20,790 nucleotides of DNA from a virus. Position numbers and translations under genes: made by a program. The notes below the pieces were generated by a model. It was not told the DNA's origin. It worked only from the letters and a program-made list of their open reading frames with translations, and made no database searches. The stretch spans positions 1 through 20,790 of the IMG/VR virus record IMGVR_UViG_3300046499_000443; one strand, given 5' to 3'. Positions 3 to 17,575 of this stretch are shown piece by piece (the first letter of the stretch is position 1; each line of letters begins with the position of its first letter).

Positions 3-2807
3 AAGGCCGACGGCACCAAGAAGCCCGCCGTGTCCTGGCTCGAATACAAGGTCACCCGCACCACGCCCGAGCAGCACGACGGATGGTTCGGCGGAGACCG
101 GCCCCGCGGCATCGCCGTCGTCTACGGCGCCGTGTCCGGCAACGTCGAGCTGATCGAGTTCGAGGGCATCGCCATCCGCGAGGGCCTGCTCAACGACGTA
201 ACCGAGATCATGGAGGCGTCCGGTCCCCGGCTCAGCGAGGCATGGGCGGCGGTCCTCGGCGGCTGGGTCACTGAGTCACCGTCCGGCGGACGGCACTTCC
301 GCGTCCGTGTCGAGGGCGACGTCCCCGGCAACACCAAGCTGGCCTCTCGCCTCGCCGAAGAGCACGAGTACACCGCCGAGGAGAAGCAGCGGCTTCGCGA
401 GAAGCCGAACGCGCGGATCGTCCGCGTCCTGATCGAGACGCGCGGCGAGGGCGGGTACGGCCTGGTCGAACCGTCCGGCGGGACGGTGCACGCTTCCGGG
501 CGCCCGTACATCCGGCTCGCTGGCGGGCCCGGCTCCATCCCGACCCTCGACGCCGAGACCGTGGGCGCGATCCGGGACGTGTGCCGGATGGTCGACAAGC
601 TCCCCCAGCCCGAGGTTGCGAAGACGGCGCCGCGCCCCGCGCCGCCCCGGCCCGACGGAAGCCTGCGCCCCGGCGACGACTTCGAGGTCCGCGGGTCCTG
701 GGAGGACATCCTCCGTGGCGTCTTCCGGCCGATGCACACCCGCGGCAGCGAGACTTACTGGGGCTGGGCGGACGGCGTCGGCGGTGTGAAGGCGACGACC
801 GGCAAGGACGAGCACGACCGGCTGTTCGTCTTCGCCACCGGGAGCGAGTTCCAGAGCGAGGTTCCCTACAGCAAGTTCGGCGCCTACGCCCTGCTCAACC
901 ACGGCGGCGACCACAAGGCCGCGGCCCGGGAGCTGGCCCGCCAGGGCTACGGCAGTCGGCACCTGGCCACTGTCGGCGCGCCCAGCACCGCGCGCGCCAT
1001 CAGCCCGGCCCCGGCGATCCCTGCCCCTGCCGCAGCACCGGACGAGGACGAGGACGAGCACGCCAGAGCCGACGAGGAGCAGGCACCCCAGGGCGACACC
1101 GCGCGGGACTCGGAAGGCTTCGACTACGCGGACACGTTCGGACTCCCGGCCACGGTCCGCACGCCGTACGACTACCGGGTCACCGGCAGGGGCGTCGAGG
1201 TGCTCAGCCAGAGCGGCGAGAGCTGGACGCGCGTGACGTTCGCCCCGCTGGTGGTGACAGCCACCTTCGAGGACCCCGAGGGAGACCAGTACGTAGAGCT
1301 GTCCTGGATCGACCGCAGCCTCGGCCGGCCGCGCCGTATCTCCCGCATCGTCAGCCGCGAGACCGCAAAGCGCGGCAGGAAGCTGATCGAGACGCTCGGG
1401 TCAGCCGGTCTCCCTGCGGTCGAGGGCGACGCTCGGGCCGTCGAGAAGTGGCTCGCAGAGTTCGAGGCCGAGAACGTCCACCGCATCCCTTCCGAGCAGT
1501 TGGCCCGCTGGCTGGGCTGGCAGGACGACGGCACGTTCGTCTCCTCGCCCGAGGACGGCATCAAGGTCGACACCGCATTCGAGGAGCAGCGCGGCCCGGC
1601 CCGAGCACATGCCAGAAAAGGGACGCTGGAGGACTGGCAGGCCACCGTCGCCCACCTGGCCAGCTTCCCGGTGCCGCGCGTCGCCGTCGCCGCCGCGCTC
1701 GCCGCCCCGCTGCTCAAGCCGCTCGGCCTCAACAGCTTCACCCTCGACATCTCCAGCCGCTCGACCAAGGGCAAGACCACGGCCCTCCAGGTCGCCTTGT
1801 CCGTGTGGGCTGACCCGTCCGAGCACGCCTCCGCCATGTCCAACTGGCGCACCACGCTGTACGCGATCGAGAAGCGGCTCAACCTCGTGCGCGGCCTGCT
1901 CACGGTCTTCGACGAGACGATGGCCGTCACCGACGACACGCTCATCGACGAGGTTCTGTACCAACTCCCGATGAACCACGGCAAGGCCAGGTCGGGCGGG
2001 GCGTTCGGCAACATGCTGCCCTGGGAGACCATCCTCCTGTCGTCCGGCGAGCGGCCCGCGCTCAGCTTCACCACCAGCCAGGGCGCGGCGGCCCGCATCC
2101 TCGGGACGACGATCGCCCCGTTCGGCGAGGGAGGCGGCCCGACTGCGGCAGCCGCCCGCGAGGGCGTCCTCGCCAACCACGGGCACGCGGGACCGGAGTT
2201 CATCCGGTACATCCTCAGCGGCCTCGCCCAGTCGAACGGCAGGGAGAAGCTCAAGGAGCACCACCGCACGCTGGTCGACGAGTTCCGCGGCAGCGGGGAC
2301 ATGACCAACCGGCGCGCCCCCATGGTCGCCGCCCTGGTCCTTGCCGAGACGCTCGCCTGCCGAACCGGTCTCCTGCCGTACGAGCCGCTCACACACGACG
2401 TGTGGCGCGGCCTGTTCACCGCCCACAACCCGACCGACAACCGGCCCGACATGGCCCTGGACGTCCTTCGCGAGTACGTCGCAGGCCACGCGCACGAGCT
2501 GTTCACCGCCGCCAAGGCGGCCATGAGCGACAAGCCTCCGTACTCCGGCTGGCTCGGCGTCCTGTCGACCAAGGACGGCGTCGCCGAGGTGGCGCTCCTG
2601 CCCGAACGGGTCCGCAAGATCCTCGCGGACGCCGGCTACTCGCTCGACGCGGTGGTCGGTAGCTGGGTCGATGCCGAGTACCTGAAGACGCTGAAGAGCC
2701 AGCGGCCCGCGCACCTCGTGCCGCGCCGGTTCGACGGCGCCCGCGCGAAGTGCCTGGCGTTCACGCCCGAGGGCATCGGCTTCGGCGACGAGGACGAGGC
2801 GGCATGA
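3..2807 (+). CDS. Bifunctional primase/polymerase fused to DUF927 helicase (5' partial)
   Basis: Probable replication protein that primes and unwinds phage DNA. The reading frame is open to the left window edge, and the residues before the GTG at 30 (KADGTKKPAV) look like normal prim-pol N-terminus, so the true start lies upstream. Numbering from GTG 30: residues 1-195 are an AEP prim-pol domain with the SPSGGRH motif (83-89) and the TRGEGGYGLVEPSGG stretch (137-151). Residues 220-310 resemble the linker domain found after such primases (SKFGAYALLNHGGDHKAA). An acidic Ala/Pro-rich hinge follows (320-362). Residues 490 onward are a DUF927 ATPase with Walker A SSRSTKGKTT (575-584), Walker B LLTVFDET (623-630) and SSGERP (671-676). 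The usual catalytic D-x-D of prim-pol motif I appears as E-F-E (43-45). It is followed by a repeat-rich non-coding stretch and a second helicase, as expected for a phage replication module. Confidence 0.88.
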   Translation, partial: KADGTKKPAVSWLEYKVTRTTPEQHDGWFGGDRPRGIAVVYGAVSGNVELIEFEGIAIREGLLNDVTEIMEASGPRLSEAWAAVLGGWVTESPSGGRHFRVRVEGDVPGNTKLASRLAEEHEYTAEEKQRLREKPNARIVRVLIETRGEGGYGLVEPSGGTVHASGRPYIRLAGGPGSIPTLDAETVGAIRDVCRMVDKLPQPEVAKTAPRPAPPRPDGSLRPGDDFEVRGSWEDILRGVFRPMHTRGSETYWGWADGVGGVKATTGKDEHDRLFVFATGSEFQSEVPYSKFGAYALLNHGGDHKAAARELARQGYGSRHLATVGAPSTARAISPAPAIPAPAAAPDEDEDEHARADEEQAPQGDTARDSEGFDYADTFGLPATVRTPYDYRVTGRGVEVLSQSGESWTRVTFAPLVVTATFEDPEGDQYVELSWIDRSLGRPRRISRIVSRETAKRGRKLIETLGSAGLPAVEGDARAVEKWLAEFEAENVHRIPSEQLARWLGWQDDGTFVSSPEDGIKVDTAFEEQRGPARAHARKGTLEDWQATVAHLASFPVPRVAVAAALAAPLLKPLGLNSFTLDISSRSTKGKTTALQVALSVWADPSEHASAMSNWRTTLYAIEKRLNLVRGLLTVFDETMAVTDDTLIDEVLYQLPMNHGKARSGGAFGNMLPWETILLSSGERPALSFTTSQGAAARILGTTIAPFGEGGGPTAAAAREGVLANHGHAGPEFIRYILSGLAQSNGREKLKEHHRTLVDEFRGSGDMTNRRAPMVAALVLAETLACRTGLLPYEPLTHDVWRGLFTAHNPTDNRPDMALDVLREYVAGHAHELFTAAKAAMSDKPPYSGWLGVLSTKDGVAEVALLPERVRKILADAGYSLDAVVGSWVDAEYLKTLKSQRPAHLVPRRFDGARAKCLAFTPEGIGFGDEDEAA

Positions 2808-3133
2808 GGGCCGCCACGGCGGTGGTACGCACGATCTGCGTACCACCCGCCGGACCTCATCACCGCAGGTCAGCGGCATCCCGACTGCCGCTTTCGGGGT
2901 GGTACGCAGTCGCCCGGAAATGGCACCCCTCCGGCGTGTGCGTGTGTGCGGGCGCGTGTGTGCGAGCGCGCACACATAGACCCCTGTGTGTTTCTGCGTA
3001 CCTGCGTACCACTAGCTCCCTAGAGAGACATAACAGCAGGTCAACCCCGCTTTTTCCCCGGTACGCAGCCGGTACGCAGCCGGTACGCAGCGCGTACCGC
3101 CCCTCTCCCCTCTCCAACGGATCGAGGTGCCCC
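2808..3133. repeat. Iteron-like array of GGTACGCA octamers; candidate replication origin or operator
   Basis: This 326-base stretch between the two replication genes holds no convincing gene. It contains eight exact GGTACGCA octamers counting both strands: + at 2824, 2901, 3060, 3071 and 3082; - (TGCGTACC) at 2837, 2995 and 3003. A near copy, CGCGTACC, lies at 3091. The first two form a perfect 11-bp inverted repeat (2821-2831/2837-2847, 5-nt centre). The last three form tandem 11-bp units (3060-3092), about one helical turn apart. A GT/GC alternating tract lies in the middle (2934-2978), and a locally AT-richer patch sits at 3010-3058. Such arrays near primase and helicase genes commonly bind an initiator, but a transcriptional operator is equally compatible. 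Confidence 0.75.
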
Positions 3134-4741
3134 ATGTCCTTCACCCCCCGCCCCTACCAGCTCGACGCCATCAAGGCCCTGCGCCAGGGATGGGACGACG
3201 GCAAGAACCGTGTGGCCGTCGTCCTCCCGACCGGCGCTGGCAAGACCGTCGTCTTCTCTCACCTGGCGCACCAGATGCTCGATGCCCTTGGCGGACGACG
3301 AGTCCTCGTCATCGCCCACCGGGAGGAGCTGATCGAGCAGGCCGCTTCCAAGCTCTTGGCCGTCGACCCGATGCTGCGGGTCGGCATCGTCAAGGCGCAG
3401 CGCGACGACCACCAGGACGCCGACGTGATCGTGGCCAGCGTCCAGACCCTGGCCGTGCAGCGGCGCCGCGAGGCCATCCGCGACATCGGCCTGATCATCG
3501 TCGACGAGTGCCACCACGCCGCAGCCCCGACGTACATGGAAGTGCTCCGCCACTTCGGCGCCTGGGACGGCGTGCCCGTCGCTGGGTTCACCGCGACGAT
3601 GACGCGCACCGACGGTGGCCTGGCCGAGGTCTGGCAGGACGTCGTGTTCCGCCTCGACATCCTCGACATGATCAGCGACGGCTATCTCTGCGACGTCCGG
3701 GGCAAGGCCATCACGGTCGACACCCTGGACCTGAACAAGGTGAAGACCCGCGGCGGCGACCTGGTCGACGGCCAGCTCGGCAAGGCGCTGGAGGACAGCG
3801 GCGCGCTCGACGCCATCGCCAAGGCCTACGTCGACCACGCGGCCGACCGGCCGGGCGTCGTCTTCACACCGACCGTGGCAACCGCTCAGCAGGCCGCCGC
3901 CGCCCTGACAGCGGTCGGTATCAGCGCGGCCCCGGTGTGGGGCGACATGGGCCGTGACGAGCGCCGCGCCACCCTCGCCCGGTACGCGGCAGGCGACGTG
4001 CAGGTGCTCACCAACTGCATGGTGCTGACGGAGGGGTTCGACGCCCCGCACACGTCGTGCATCGTCGTCGCCCGCCCGACGAAGAGCCCCGGCCTGTACG
4101 TGCAGATGGTCGGCCGCGGGCTGCGACCGGCGCCCGGCAAGACGGACGCGCTGCTGCTCGACGTCATGGGCGCGGCCTCCCGCCACAAGCTGGCCTCGAT
4201 GGTCGACCTCACCGAGCGGGAGATCGGCCAGGCCGAGGAGGGCAAGAGCCTGCGGCAGGTCGCCGAGGAGCACGCCGCCACAGAGCAGCGCCGGACGCTG
4301 GCCGCGCAGGTCACGGCCGAGGAGATCAACCTGTTCGGCGGCTCGTCCATCCGCTGGCTTCGCACGCCCTCCGGTACCTGGTTCATCCGCGTCTCGAACG
4401 CGATGGTGCTCTTCCTCGTCCGGGACCCGGGCTCACGCCTCTACCGGATGCGCCGCTGGACGGCGGAGGCCGGCGTGCAGCCGCCGCGTGAGGACACCGC
4501 CCGCCCGCTCGGCGAGGCGCTCGCCTGGTTGGAGCAGCAGGCCCGCGTCCTGACCCCCGGCGCCTTCGTCGACCGCCGGGCCCGCTGGCGCTCGGGCAAG
4601 CCCAGCCCCAAGCAGCTTGGCCTGTGCCGCCGTCGAGGCATCGCCGTCCCCCGGCAGGCCACCGCTGGCGACATCGCCGACCTGATCGACACCGAACACG
4701 TGACGTCGGTCCTCGACTCCCTGCTCGTCCCCGCCGCGTAA
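3134..4741 (+). CDS. Superfamily 2 DEAD/DEAH-type helicase
   Basis: ATP-dependent nucleic-acid helicase, 535 residues, probably acting in phage DNA replication or recombination. The start at ATG 3134 follows GAGGTG (3124-3129), and homology to the family begins at once (TPRPYQLDAIKAL); longer in-frame extensions would cross the upstream repeat array and are rejected. Visible motifs: Q-like PRPYQ (5-9), motif I PTGAGKT (32-38), motif II DECH (124-127), TAT of motif III, LTEGFDAP of motif V and QMVGRGLRP of motif VI. The C-terminus ends in a small basic domain (SPKQLGLCRRRGI...) that also occurs at the end of other phage SF2 helicases. It resembles the RadD/YejH-like group in layout, but I cannot assign an exact subfamily or substrate. 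Confidence 0.92.
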   Translation: MSFTPRPYQLDAIKALRQGWDDGKNRVAVVLPTGAGKTVVFSHLAHQMLDALGGRRVLVIAHREELIEQAASKLLAVDPMLRVGIVKAQRDDHQDADVIVASVQTLAVQRRREAIRDIGLIIVDECHHAAAPTYMEVLRHFGAWDGVPVAGFTATMTRTDGGLAEVWQDVVFRLDILDMISDGYLCDVRGKAITVDTLDLNKVKTRGGDLVDGQLGKALEDSGALDAIAKAYVDHAADRPGVVFTPTVATAQQAAAALTAVGISAAPVWGDMGRDERRATLARYAAGDVQVLTNCMVLTEGFDAPHTSCIVVARPTKSPGLYVQMVGRGLRPAPGKTDALLLDVMGAASRHKLASMVDLTEREIGQAEEGKSLRQVAEEHAATEQRRTLAAQVTAEEINLFGGSSIRWLRTPSGTWFIRVSNAMVLFLVRDPGSRLYRMRRWTAEAGVQPPREDTARPLGEALAWLEQQARVLTPGAFVDRRARWRSGKPSPKQLGLCRRRGIAVPRQATAGDIADLIDTEHVTSVLDSLLVPAA

Positions 4742-4746
4742 CGAGT

Positions 4747-4769
4747 CGGGCCTGTCGCTATCAGGCCCG
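4747..4769 (+). promoter_or_regulatory. Leader hairpin, copy 1
   Basis: An 8-bp perfect stem (CGGGCCTG / CAGGCCCG) closes a 7-nt loop TCGCTAT, 5 nt after the helicase stop and 32 nt before the next start. There is no T-tract. A 35-nt stretch starting here (4747-4781) is repeated exactly at 5715-5749. It may be a T-less terminator, an mRNA stabiliser or a translational control element. Confidence 0.7.
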
Positions 4770-4801
4770 GCCCTCCACCCACCACAACCAGGGAGGAACC
4801 C

Positions 4802-5686
4802 ATGGAGACAGCTTCGCTCCGGTCCGTCAGCTACGGAGGCGGCGTCCAGTCCACCGGGCTGCTCGTCCTCGCCGCGCAGAAGCACATCGACTTCCCGCTG
4901 TTCGTCTTCGCCAACGTCGGCAACGACAGCGAGCGGGCCGCGACGCTGCGGTACGTCGAGGAGTACGCCAAGCCCTACGCCGCCGAGCACGGCATCGAGT
5001 TGGTCGAGGTGCAGCGCGTCCGCCGCGACGGCACCACCGAGACGCTGCACGGCCGACTGACGCGTCCCGGCTCCCGCTCGCTGCCGATCCCTGTGCGCAT
5101 GTCCAACGGGGCGCCCGGCACTCGCTCTTGCACCGCCGACTTCAAGATCAAGACGGTCGGCAAAGAGATGAAGCGGCGCGGAGCCACCGCAGGCCGCGTC
5201 TGCGCTGCCCACAGCGGCGACCCGGCCAGCCCCAAGTGCCGAGGCCGCAAGTGCGTCCAGCCGAACAAGGCGACGATCGGGATCGGAATCTCGCTGGACG
5301 AGATCCACCGCGCGAACACCCGGCGGGTCGAGCCGCACGAGCAGATCGTGTACCCGCTGCTCGACCTCGGCCTGCGCCGCATCGACTGCCAGCGCATCAT
5401 CCGCGAAGCGGGCCTGCCCGTACCGCCCAAGTCCAGTTGCTACTTCTGCCCGTTCCACCGGCCGGAGACGTGGCACGACATGCGCCGGCAGGAGCCGGAC
5501 GAGTTCGAGAAGGCATGCCAGCTCGAAGACCTGCTGAACGAGCGGCGCGACGAACTCGGCAAAGACCACGTCTACCTGACCCGCTTCAACAGGCCCCTGC
5601 GCGCAGCGATCCCGGAGGGCGTGGACCTGCTGCCGATCTTCGACGAGGCCGACGGCTCCTGTGACTCCGGCTGGTGCATGACGTGA
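4802..5686 (+). CDS. PAPS-reductase-like PP-loop protein
   Basis: Member of the PP-loop ATP pyrophosphatase / phosphoadenosine-phosphosulfate reductase superfamily, 294 residues. The start ATG 4802 follows GGGAGGA at 4791-4797. Visible signs: PP-loop SYGGGVQS (10-17), the R-S-C-T-x-D-F-K-I-K stretch (108-117) typical of this family, a cysteine-rich insertion (C134, C146, C151) and a C-terminal CYFC (213-216), plus C287 and C292. The many paired cysteines suggest a metal or Fe-S site. Relatives are common in actinophages, but their function is not settled; options include nucleic-acid or nucleotide sulfur modification, as in DndC-type enzymes, rather than sulfate assimilation. No sulfur-pathway partners lie nearby. 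It is preceded by the hairpin leader that is duplicated in front of the next gene. Confidence 0.82.
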   Translation: METASLRSVSYGGGVQSTGLLVLAAQKHIDFPLFVFANVGNDSERAATLRYVEEYAKPYAAEHGIELVEVQRVRRDGTTETLHGRLTRPGSRSLPIPVRMSNGAPGTRSCTADFKIKTVGKEMKRRGATAGRVCAAHSGDPASPKCRGRKCVQPNKATIGIGISLDEIHRANTRRVEPHEQIVYPLLDLGLRRIDCQRIIREAGLPVPPKSSCYFCPFHRPETWHDMRRQEPDEFEKACQLEDLLNERRDELGKDHVYLTRFNRPLRAAIPEGVDLLPIFDEADGSCDSGWCMT

Positions 5687-5711
5687 CCCGGCCGCCGAAC
5701 GCCGCCTGACA

Positions 5712-5740
5712 GGCCGGGCCTGTCGCTATCAGGCCCGGCC
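5712..5740 (+). promoter_or_regulatory. Leader hairpin, copy 2
   Basis: The same loop TCGCTAT as at 4755-4761, here with an 11-bp perfect stem (5712-5722/5730-5740). The upstream bases also allow a competing pairing, GACAGGCC with GGCCTGTC (5708-5724), which shares part of the stem. The downstream region to the GGAGGAACCC ribosome-binding site is also nearly the same as copy 1. Confidence 0.7.
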
Positions 5741-5768
5741 CTCCACCCATCACACCACGGAGGAACCC

Positions 5769-6796: not shown

Positions 6797-7419
6797 ACAT
6801 CTGTGGCCTGTGCGAGCGTCCGCTGGAGTACGGCTACCTGTGCCCCGGCGACACGCGCGCGCTCGTCGAGCGGCTCCAGCGCCTGCCCGCCCTCGCGGGG
6901 CGGCTGAGTGGGGCGCTCGCCCCGGTGACCCGCGGCGCTATGGAGCGCGTCTCTGCGGGTCACCCCGGGCCCTCGTCGCCGCTCAACGACAGCGCGCTGG
7001 ACCTCTGGTACGGCGGCATGGCCAGCGTCCTGGAGCGCTGGCGCTCGGACGTACAGGCGTGGCGCGGCTGGGGCCAGCCCGTCATCGAGAGGAGCGTGGA
7101 CCGCCGCATCCTGGTCGCGGCCCGCTGGCTCTGGATGAACGTCGAGTGGATCGCCGCCGAGTACCCGTCAGCCGGGGACCTGGCCAAGGCGGTCCGCAGT
7201 CTGGAGGGCGAGGCGCTGTCCGTCCTCGGCGAGGGCGACGACCGCGGCCGGCGGCTCGGGCAGTGCGTCGCCGTCGTCGGCGCGGACGGCGCGGTGTGCG
7301 GGGCGCCGCTGCGGCACCGGTCCGGGGAGACGAGCCTGGTGTGCCCGTGGTGTGAGTACGTGTACGAGGCGGACGACTTCCTGATGCTGCACCACTTCCA
7401 GCCGAAGGAATCCGCGTGA
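6793..7419 (+). CDS. Hypothetical zinc-ribbon protein
   Basis: A 208-residue protein with two cysteine clusters: C4-x2-C7 with C17 at the N-terminus, and C158, C169, C184-x2-C187 at the C-terminus, in the pattern of a zinc ribbon (CVAVVGADGAVCG...CPWC). The central part is helical and rich in Trp. The GTG at 6793 is chosen because the CGLCERP motif follows immediately and the start overlaps the preceding stop; upstream in-frame sequence lies inside the previous gene. Proteins of this layout occur widely in Streptomyces phages and mobile elements without known function; nucleic-acid binding is likely by analogy. The end of the gene abuts the promoter/operator at 7425. Confidence 0.8.
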   Translation: MNICGLCERPLEYGYLCPGDTRALVERLQRLPALAGRLSGALAPVTRGAMERVSAGHPGPSSPLNDSALDLWYGGMASVLERWRSDVQAWRGWGQPVIERSVDRRILVAARWLWMNVEWIAAEYPSAGDLAKAVRSLEGEALSVLGEGDDRGRRLGQCVAVVGADGAVCGAPLRHRSGETSLVCPWCEYVYEADDFLMLHHFQPKESA

Positions 7420-13067: not shown

Positions 13068-13268
13068 ATGGAGTCGCAGATCATCCGCCCCGGCTACCTG
13101 ACCGCCCACCAGACGGCACGCGTCCTCCGTGTCGGCCTCCCCGCCGTCCGGAAGCTGGTCCAGCGCGGCCAGCTCACCCACGCTGGCGGCAGCACCGGTC
13201 AGCCGCTGTACGCGGTCGAGGAGGTCAAAGCCCTCGCACTGAAACGCCGGACACGCAAGGCCGCTTGA
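13068..13268 (+). CDS. Excisionase-like MerR-type HTH protein
   Basis: A 66-residue protein with the winged-HTH pattern of excisionase-family proteins: YLTAHQTARVLRVGLPAVRKLVQRGQL (residues 10-36), then a short wing and LYAVEEVKAL (47-56). Such proteins bend DNA at attachment sites or regulate transcription. ATG 13068 is preceded by GGAGG (13062-13066) with only one base between them, too close for normal use, so a leaderless transcript or an unusual start is possible. It lies 130 bases after the inverted-repeat array, a plausible binding site. No integrase is seen in the window. Confidence 0.78.
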   Translation: MESQIIRPGYLTAHQTARVLRVGLPAVRKLVQRGQLTHAGGSTGQPLYAVEEVKALALKRRTRKAA

Positions 13269-16059: not shown

Positions 16060-17575
16060 GGCGTTCGGCGTCCAGACGCCGCGTCTCTTCACGGCCCCGG
16101 CGACCGCCGTCTCGACGGCAGGGCAGGAGGCCATCGACCTCGCTGCGAAGGCGGGCCTGGTCCTCGACCCCTGGCAGCGGTACGTGCTCAACCAGGCGAT
16201 GGCTGAGGACGACGAGGGCCGCTGGGCCGCGTTCGAGGTGTGCGTCAACGTGCCGAGGCAGAACGGCAAGGGCGCGATCATTGAGGCCAGGGAATTGTGG
16301 GGACTGTTCATCGGAGGCGAGGAGCTCATCCTCCACTCCGCCCACGAGTTCAAGACGGCGAAGGCCGCCTTCAAGCGCATCGAACGGCTCATCCGCCGAT
16401 GCCCTGACCTGCTGAAACGCGTGAAGACGTTCCGGCAGACCGTCGGCGAGGAAGCGGTCGAGCTCCACGACGGTCGCACGCTGCGGTTCATCGCCCGCTC
16501 GAAGGGCTCGGGCCGCGGCTTCACCGGGGACTGCAACATCTTGGACGAGTCCATGATCCTCGGAGACGAGGCGATGGACGCCCTGCTGCCGACGATGGCT
16601 GCCGTGGACGATCCCCAGATCTGGTACCTGGGTTCGGCAGGGATCGGCGCGCCGTCCGTGCAGCTCGGGAGGCTGCGCAAGCGGGCCGAGACGGCACTGG
16701 AGACGGGCGTCCCGGATTCCTCGCTCGCCTACATGGAGTGGTCGATCAGCCCGCATGTGAAGGAGTGCGTGAAGGGCTGCACCGACCACGACAACGCGGA
16801 CAGCGACGAGGCGATCCTGCGGGCCAACCCGTCGACCGGCTACCGCCTGTCGCTGGTGAAGAGCCGGAACGAGCGCACGACGTTGAGCACGGCTGGGTAC
16901 GCGCGTGAGCGGCTCGGGGTGGGCGAGTACCCGTCTGAGGAGGGCGACGCCTGGGCGGTCATCGGCAAGGACGCGTGGGAGGCCCTGGCGGACGGTGACA
17001 GCCAGATGGCGGACCCTGTTGCCTTCGCCATCGACGTGACCCCAGAGCGGTCGCACGCCTCGATCTGCGCGGCCGGCCACAACGGCGAGGTCGTGCACGT
17101 CGAGGTCGTCGACAACAGGCCCGGTACGGACTGGGTGGCCAAGCGGGCCCGGGAACTGACGAAGAAGTGGAGGCCGCGCTGCTGGGTCATTGACCCGGGC
17201 AGCCCGGCCGGATCACTGATCCGGGAGGTCACGGAGGAGCTGAAGGTCGATCCCGATGAGGAGGTCGCCGACGACGAGGAACCTCAGCTCCTGGCTCCGA
17301 TCGTGCAGACCAAGACGCGCGACGTCGTCCAGGCCACCGGCCAGTTCTACGACGCGGTGGCGGCGGCCCGGATCGTCCACCTCGGCCAGGCGCCGTTGTC
17401 GACGTCCCTGGCGGGGGCCAAGAAGCGGGACTTGGGCGAGGCGTGGGCGTGGGCGCGGCGAGGGGTGGGCGTGGACATCACGCCGCTTGTCGGTGTGACG
17501 AACGCACGGTGGGGCCTCTTCGTGGAGATCGAGGAGCCGGAAGAGGAGGTGGACCCGTGGGCCGAGTACGGCTGA
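15992..17575 (+). CDS. terL: Terminase large subunit
   Basis: A 527-residue packaging ATPase/nuclease. ATG 15992 has AGGAGGG (15974-15980) upstream. ATPase domain: Walker A-like VPRQNGKG (87-94), Walker B NILDE (182-186) and the GSAG coupling motif (214-217). RNase H-like nuclease domain: AIDVT with D348 and VIDPGSPAG with D401 as probable metal ligands, with a further acidic region (about 424-438) whose role is unclear. Length and motif order fit the HK97-type terminases of actinophages. A cysteine-bearing insertion, ECVKGCTDHD, lies at 258-267. It pumps genome DNA into the prohead through the portal encoded next but one. Confidence 0.94.
   Translation: MRSSLTEPSARPGSEPSQPPASEAFGVQTPRLFTAPATAVSTAGQEAIDLAAKAGLVLDPWQRYVLNQAMAEDDEGRWAAFEVCVNVPRQNGKGAIIEARELWGLFIGGEELILHSAHEFKTAKAAFKRIERLIRRCPDLLKRVKTFRQTVGEEAVELHDGRTLRFIARSKGSGRGFTGDCNILDESMILGDEAMDALLPTMAAVDDPQIWYLGSAGIGAPSVQLGRLRKRAETALETGVPDSSLAYMEWSISPHVKECVKGCTDHDNADSDEAILRANPSTGYRLSLVKSRNERTTLSTAGYARERLGVGEYPSEEGDAWAVIGKDAWEALADGDSQMADPVAFAIDVTPERSHASICAAGHNGEVVHVEVVDNRPGTDWVAKRARELTKKWRPRCWVIDPGSPAGSLIREVTEELKVDPDEEVADDEEPQLLAPIVQTKTRDVVQATGQFYDAVAAARIVHLGQAPLSTSLAGAKKRDLGEAWAWARRGVGVDITPLVGVTNARWGLFVEIEEPEEEVDPWAEYG

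Follow-up and report, generated by a model that had tools for sequence, protein, structure and literature searches.

The 326-bp gap between a primase gene and a helicase gene of this viral DNA raises the question of why it should hold eight exact copies of one octamer, GGTACGCA. The window, meaning the whole stretch that was analysed, is one entire IMG/VR virus record of 20,790 bases and represents a 20.8-kb fragment. All eight copies lie at 2824–3089, and none occurs elsewhere in the window. Dinucleotide shuffles of the whole window contained the octamer 0.34 times on average and at most twice, which bears out the original prediction that its number is far above chance, and when the gap itself was shuffled the best 8-mer reached no more than 3 copies. 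On the evidence of homology, conservation, position, a low-stability segment and joint exchange with the initiator, the array is very probably a replication origin of a Streptomyces phage, of the iteron type that had been proposed.

The array had been placed between the primase and the helicase, and its limits indeed run exactly from the primase stop codon to the helicase ATG. The arrangement described for it, consisting of an inverted pair, a tandem pair and three units spaced by 11 bp, was also correct, with a single site at 2901 to be added. The inventory of eight exact copies holds as well, although it lacked a ninth, degenerate copy at 3092–3098. The features of the locus are as follows (window coordinates, strand):

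3–2807, plus strand: probable replication initiator (the primase gene), with Prim-Pol, DUF927 AAA+ helicase and a predicted C-terminal winged-helix region; 5′ end cut by the start of the record
2559–2762, plus strand: part of the initiator modelled as a winged helix, with a predicted DNA-binding function as the putative iteron reader (alignment-based model)
2808–3133, no strand: putative origin region, from the initiator stop (2807) to the helicase ATG (3134)
2824–2831, plus strand: iteron 1, GGTACGCA, left arm of the perfect palindrome 2821–2847 (11-bp arms, 5-bp loop)
2837–2844, minus strand: iteron 2, right arm of the same palindrome
2865–2872, plus strand: first copy of GCAGGTCA, a second conserved short motif
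2901–2908, plus strand: iteron 3, lone site
2911–2935, no strand: conserved non-iteron block CGCCCGGAAATGGCACCCCTCCGGC, from the gap alignment
2934–2978, no strand: alternating purine-pyrimidine stretch, in which the window's three longest tracts of this type lie
2995–3002, minus strand: iteron 4, in tandem with iteron 5 at a distance of 8 bp
3003–3010, minus strand: iteron 5, in tandem with iteron 4
3006–3045, no strand: likely DNA-unwinding element, with the lowest stability of any 40-mer in the window and conserved GAGAGAcATAAcAGCAGGTCA
3036–3043, plus strand: second copy of GCAGGTCA, within the low-stability segment
3060–3067, plus strand: iteron 6, first of the 11-bp-spaced triple
3071–3078, plus strand: iteron 7, second of the triple
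3082–3089, plus strand: iteron 8, third of the triple
3092–3098, minus strand: degenerate iteron 9 (GGTACGC), where several relatives have an intact GGTACGCA
3134–4741, plus strand: DEAD/SF2-type helicase gene (PHROG 16), common to both origin classes

Searches with the primase and the helicase yielded 59 loci, mostly on viral contigs and including five Streptomyces genome contigs. Class I denotes loci in which the C-terminal half of the primase (C-half) resembles that of the window, and class II sister loci in which it is unrelated. In every class I locus the same gap contains 7–10 copies of GGTACGCA, with hardly any outside it. A scan of 11 whole related viral records (32–97 kb) likewise found 7–10 copies clustered here and 0–3 elsewhere, and the even scatter over the full genome that was named as evidence against an origin is not what these records contain. 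In an alignment of 20 gap sequences, 60 of the 64 iteron columns are invariant, versus 71 of the 243 other columns (p = 1e-18), and the order and spacing of the iterons are nearly constant (13, 64, 94/106, 8, 57, 11 and 11). Class I gaps also keep GCAGGTCA at two positions, and the plasmid gaps described below have GGTCA-like counterparts of it. About 20 two-copy matches of GGTACGCA in viral contigs look like chance.

The protein encoded directly upstream of the array matches a Prim-Pol domain (PF09250, 1.3e-5) and DUF927 (PF06048, 4e-35), as well as the phage families PHROG 8841 and 19930. A profile of its C-half aligned over nearly full length with SaPIbov1 Rep (8tch, E 1.2e-55) and SCCmec Cch (5dgk, E 6.3e-47), and when the predicted structure of this half was searched with Foldseek, the same two entries were by far the best PDB matches (E 1e-23 to 1e-25). 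This structure is a model based on a 25-row alignment, with a mean pLDDT of 81; folding the C-half from its single sequence gave a pLDDT of 36. The C-terminal elements of the alignment-based model follow the order strand-strand-helix-helix-strand-wing-strand, which is winged-helix-like, at a local pLDDT of about 73–84. The Cch HTH family PF18662 scored 19.6 bits on this protein, under its cut-off of 26.2, and was under the cut-off for the DUF927 protein of plasmid pFP4 too. SaPI Reps are self-loading initiator helicases, apparently acting as two hexamers, whose C-terminal domain binds iterons directly 3′ of their own gene (PMC7581432). The window shares two features of this SaPI Rep/Cch module: its DUF927 AAA+ helicase is a homologue of both SaPIbov1 Rep and Cch, and several short repeats lie directly 3′ of the initiator gene.

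Class II loci provide a natural swap of both parts. Their N-terminal Prim-Pol domain and their helicase are 54–75% and 64–97% identical to those of the window, whereas their C-half has no detectable similarity to the window C-half. In the same gap they carry six to fourteen copies of TCCCCGCA, TCCCTGCA or ACCCCGCA, so that the class II iteron reads TCCC[C/T]GCA or ACCCCGCA instead of GGTACGCA. The clearest case is locus L020, whose helicase is the closest to that of the window (97% identical) and which nevertheless belongs to class II, with GGTACGCA absent from its gap. Its DNA is similar to the window at 1–914 and at 3138–4801 (94.7%), with nothing in between, and the similarity restarts inside the helicase gene, in its first few codons. 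No mismatched combination of C-half and iteron was seen among the loci compared. This absence of mixed cases, together with the natural swap, places the determinant of the iteron most likely in the C-half. Judged from these comparisons, the C-half and the gap most likely travel as one cassette, and the most likely binder of the GGTACGCA iterons is the primase itself, through its C-half.

In class II, the C-half shares 47% identity with RepA of the Streptomyces plasmid pWTY27, a protein that binds in vitro the iterons adjoining repA, and these iterons lie within the minimal replicon (PMC3583192). Of the two alternative modules, one thus comes from a protein family for which iteron binding has been demonstrated, while the other is of the SaPI/Cch family. 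Within class II, phages with TCCCTGCA differ from those with TCCCCGCA or ACCCCGCA at columns 462, 495, 512, 539 and 551 of the initiator alignment; column 539 holds K versus R or C between the iteron groups. Eight protein columns in all distinguish the groups defined by the T/C change in TCCC[C/T]GCA, and five of the eight fall among the last 98 columns of an alignment of 559. Since this grouping ranked third of 78 possible choices, the columns near the C-terminus are suggestive only as candidate specificity positions.

The idea that the octamer occurs with this initiator alone was rejected because arrays lie beside unrelated initiator-like genes as well: 11 copies of GGTACGCA lie directly 3′ of a gene for a Prim-Pol plus AAA_25 protein (L068, 3285–3479) and 4 copies directly 3′ of a gene for an AAA+-like protein (L105, 3962–4174). 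The octamer may therefore serve other replicon types. The downstream helicase was rejected as the octamer reader, being common to both iteron classes, as its counterpart in L020 illustrates. The original prediction had named the primase-helicase and the HTH proteins of the phage as candidate binders; the former is retained, most likely through its C-half, and the latter were dropped since they do not track the octamer.

Joint change of the C-half and the array might also reflect shared ancestry or linkage, with two old lineages and block exchange, rather than reading of one by the other. The tree of the Prim-Pol N-terminal domain is compatible with this, as the class label needs only 2 changes on it, and the C-half adjoins the gap, so that joint travel would be expected anyway. 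The helicase tree, however, requires 8 class changes, at least 4 of which are forced by starred (well-supported) branches; the nearest helicase of all sits in the other class, with DNA similarity resuming only at the helicase start; and both types of C-half are homologous to iteron-reading initiators. We consider linkage alone highly improbable. An array that served mainly as an operator, through which a phage regulator or an initiator-repressor controlled the helicase operon while replication started elsewhere, is very unlikely as well. The array does end about 35–45 bp before the helicase ATG, and palindromes and tandem sites occur in operators too. Yet the octamer precedes no other gene of the window, and the gap holds no sigma-70-like promoter match in a search that covers Streptomyces promoters poorly. 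Nor do the HTH genes co-vary with the octamer: the HTH gene at 7416 occurs in both iteron classes and is absent from several class I loci, and the MerR-like gene at 13068 was found in two tested loci only, one per class, in loci that extend about 5 kb past the helicase. Neither a co-varying regulator nor sites at several promoters, as expected of an operator array, were thus found in the window, and what the type of iteron does follow is the primase C-half, which is homologous to helicases that bind origins. The origin reading would be compatible with an initiator that binds the iterons and thereby regulates its own gene, and the array may have such an autoregulatory role beside that of an origin.

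That the array is a centromere-like (parS) or packaging (pac) site and no origin seems extremely improbable. Partition sites too can be direct-repeat arrays, and one class II relative exists as a circular 34.5-kb plasmid. Against this stand the lack of any ParA/ParB family match in the ten window proteins scanned, the joint change of the repeats with the initiator C-half, and the equivalent arrays by the rep genes of plasmid homologues, an arrangement shown for pWTY27 to be the minimal replicon (PMC3583192). The plasmid relative is L109 (NZ_CP108372.1) of Streptomyces sp. NBC_01335, which contains terminase, portal, capsid and tail genes. Two class I relatives are located within a Streptomyces chromosome (L058, in Streptomyces sp. 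WAC 01529) and within a large contig (L061). Some members of the family look like phage-plasmids.

For the iteron origin that we favour, the low-stability segment at 3006–3045 is well placed between the tandem pair and the 11-bp-spaced triple, i.e. among the inner iterons. Repeats, a low-stability segment and an adjoining initiator gene, as in iteron-type theta replicons, are thus found together. A change in GC skew, which had also been envisaged, did not appear as a clear switch at the site within the window. In the model that we infer for initiator binding, iteron reading, ring loading, melting and thereby origin activity, the initiator would be a three-part protein in which a Prim-Pol domain is followed by an AAA+ helicase of the DUF927/Cch type and, at the C-terminus, by a winged helix that would bind the GGTACGCA iterons 3′ of the initiator gene. 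If it acts as SaPI Rep does, a pair of helicase rings might then assemble from the oppositely oriented inner groups at 2995–3010 and 3060–3098 and melt the low-stability segment, after which the attached Prim-Pol domain would prime DNA synthesis. As the record is a 20.8-kb fragment, the phage may have a second origin elsewhere.

Just past the helicase gene of the window, a PAPS-reductase-like gene (4802–5686) is flanked by 55-nt direct repeats (4732–4786 and 5700–5754) that are 89% identical. Similar repeats in L020 (6539–6661 and 7679–7804) surround a C-5 cytosine DNA methylase gene, and this repeat-flanked site resembles a slot for cargo genes that can be exchanged. A tRNA called by ARAGORN at 16363–16456 on the minus strand lies inside the terminase gene, has no clear anticodon and is probably spurious.

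For a Streptomyces phage family that is widespread, the analysis predicts an origin, an initiator and a reader domain, and Streptomyces vectors could gain a compact replicon from it. Because many C-halves, each with its own octamer, occur naturally in similar phages, origin specificity of the SaPI/Cch type becomes testable. A broader proposal, to which we give about an even chance, is that the family changes replicon type by repeated exchange of a cassette, made of the helicase and DNA-binding half of the initiator and its matching iteron origin, with the primase domain and the accessory helicase left in place. Actinobacterial and firmicute DUF927 initiators would then share one layout (a tandem pair, a melting segment of about 50–60 bp and inverted sites) with a variable octamer, and the winged helix and the octamer would form a recognition code, possibly driven by incompatibility of co-resident phages and plasmids.

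Among known systems, SaPIbov1 Rep and SCCmec Cch (8tch, 5dgk; PMC7581432) share with the window the DUF927 AAA+ helicase and short repeats directly 3′ of the gene, a probable origin in the window, and their C-terminal DNA-binding region has a predicted counterpart there. The window initiator differs in being fused to Prim-Pol and in belonging to a Streptomyces tailed phage, and its family has another octamer with 7–10 exact sites in a fixed layout. The repAB-iteron replicon of pWTY27 (NC_013667; PMC3583192) likewise combines Prim-Pol, an initiator and adjoining downstream iterons, but its Prim-Pol and initiator are separate genes, and its RepA belongs to class II whereas the window has the DUF927 type. 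The Streptomyces plasmid-phage pFP4 (NC_017833) has a 42% identical DUF927 protein and a Prim-Pol gene alongside. Its downstream gap contains a similar tandem pair, a GAGAGA segment, a stretch of alternating GTGCGC and, at a distance of about 12 bp from each other, inverted sites, while its candidate iteron is AGTTACCC and its Prim-Pol is separate. An S. virginiae plasmid (NZ_CP108092) encodes a 39% identical DUF927 protein, with GGGGAACA as iteron and a similar gap layout; the pFP4 and S. virginiae gaps both contain an alternating purine-pyrimidine stretch, a tandem pair at about 8 bp, GAGAGA and GGTCA-like motifs, and inverted sites.

Strong repeat arrays also lie right downstream of DUF927 genes in Geobacillus, Thermoanaerobacterium and Faecalibacterium elements, and several distant viral DUF927 loci have downstream arrays too. 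Among 22 DUF927 loci of greater distance, roughly two thirds had no clear iterons within 400 bp downstream, so that not all of the superfamily has this arrangement. Extrachromosomal prophages of mycobacteriophages resemble the present case as actinobacterial temperate phages with their own initiator-dependent replicon (PMC7157519). Their RepA is a small plasmid-type protein of 320–350 aa, and no repeat motifs were identified as their origin (PMC7157519), in which the window differs. One initiator-origin module would link phages, plasmid-phages, staphylococcal islands and SCCmec. A search of openly licensed papers gave no description of this octamer as an origin, none of the 15 papers listed out of 399 being about one. 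Origins of this kind are known from SaPI Rep and SCCmec Cch and from Streptomyces rep-iteron plasmids; what is new is this octamer, the Prim-Pol-fused initiator in Streptomyces phages, and the repeated exchange of the C-half together with the origin.
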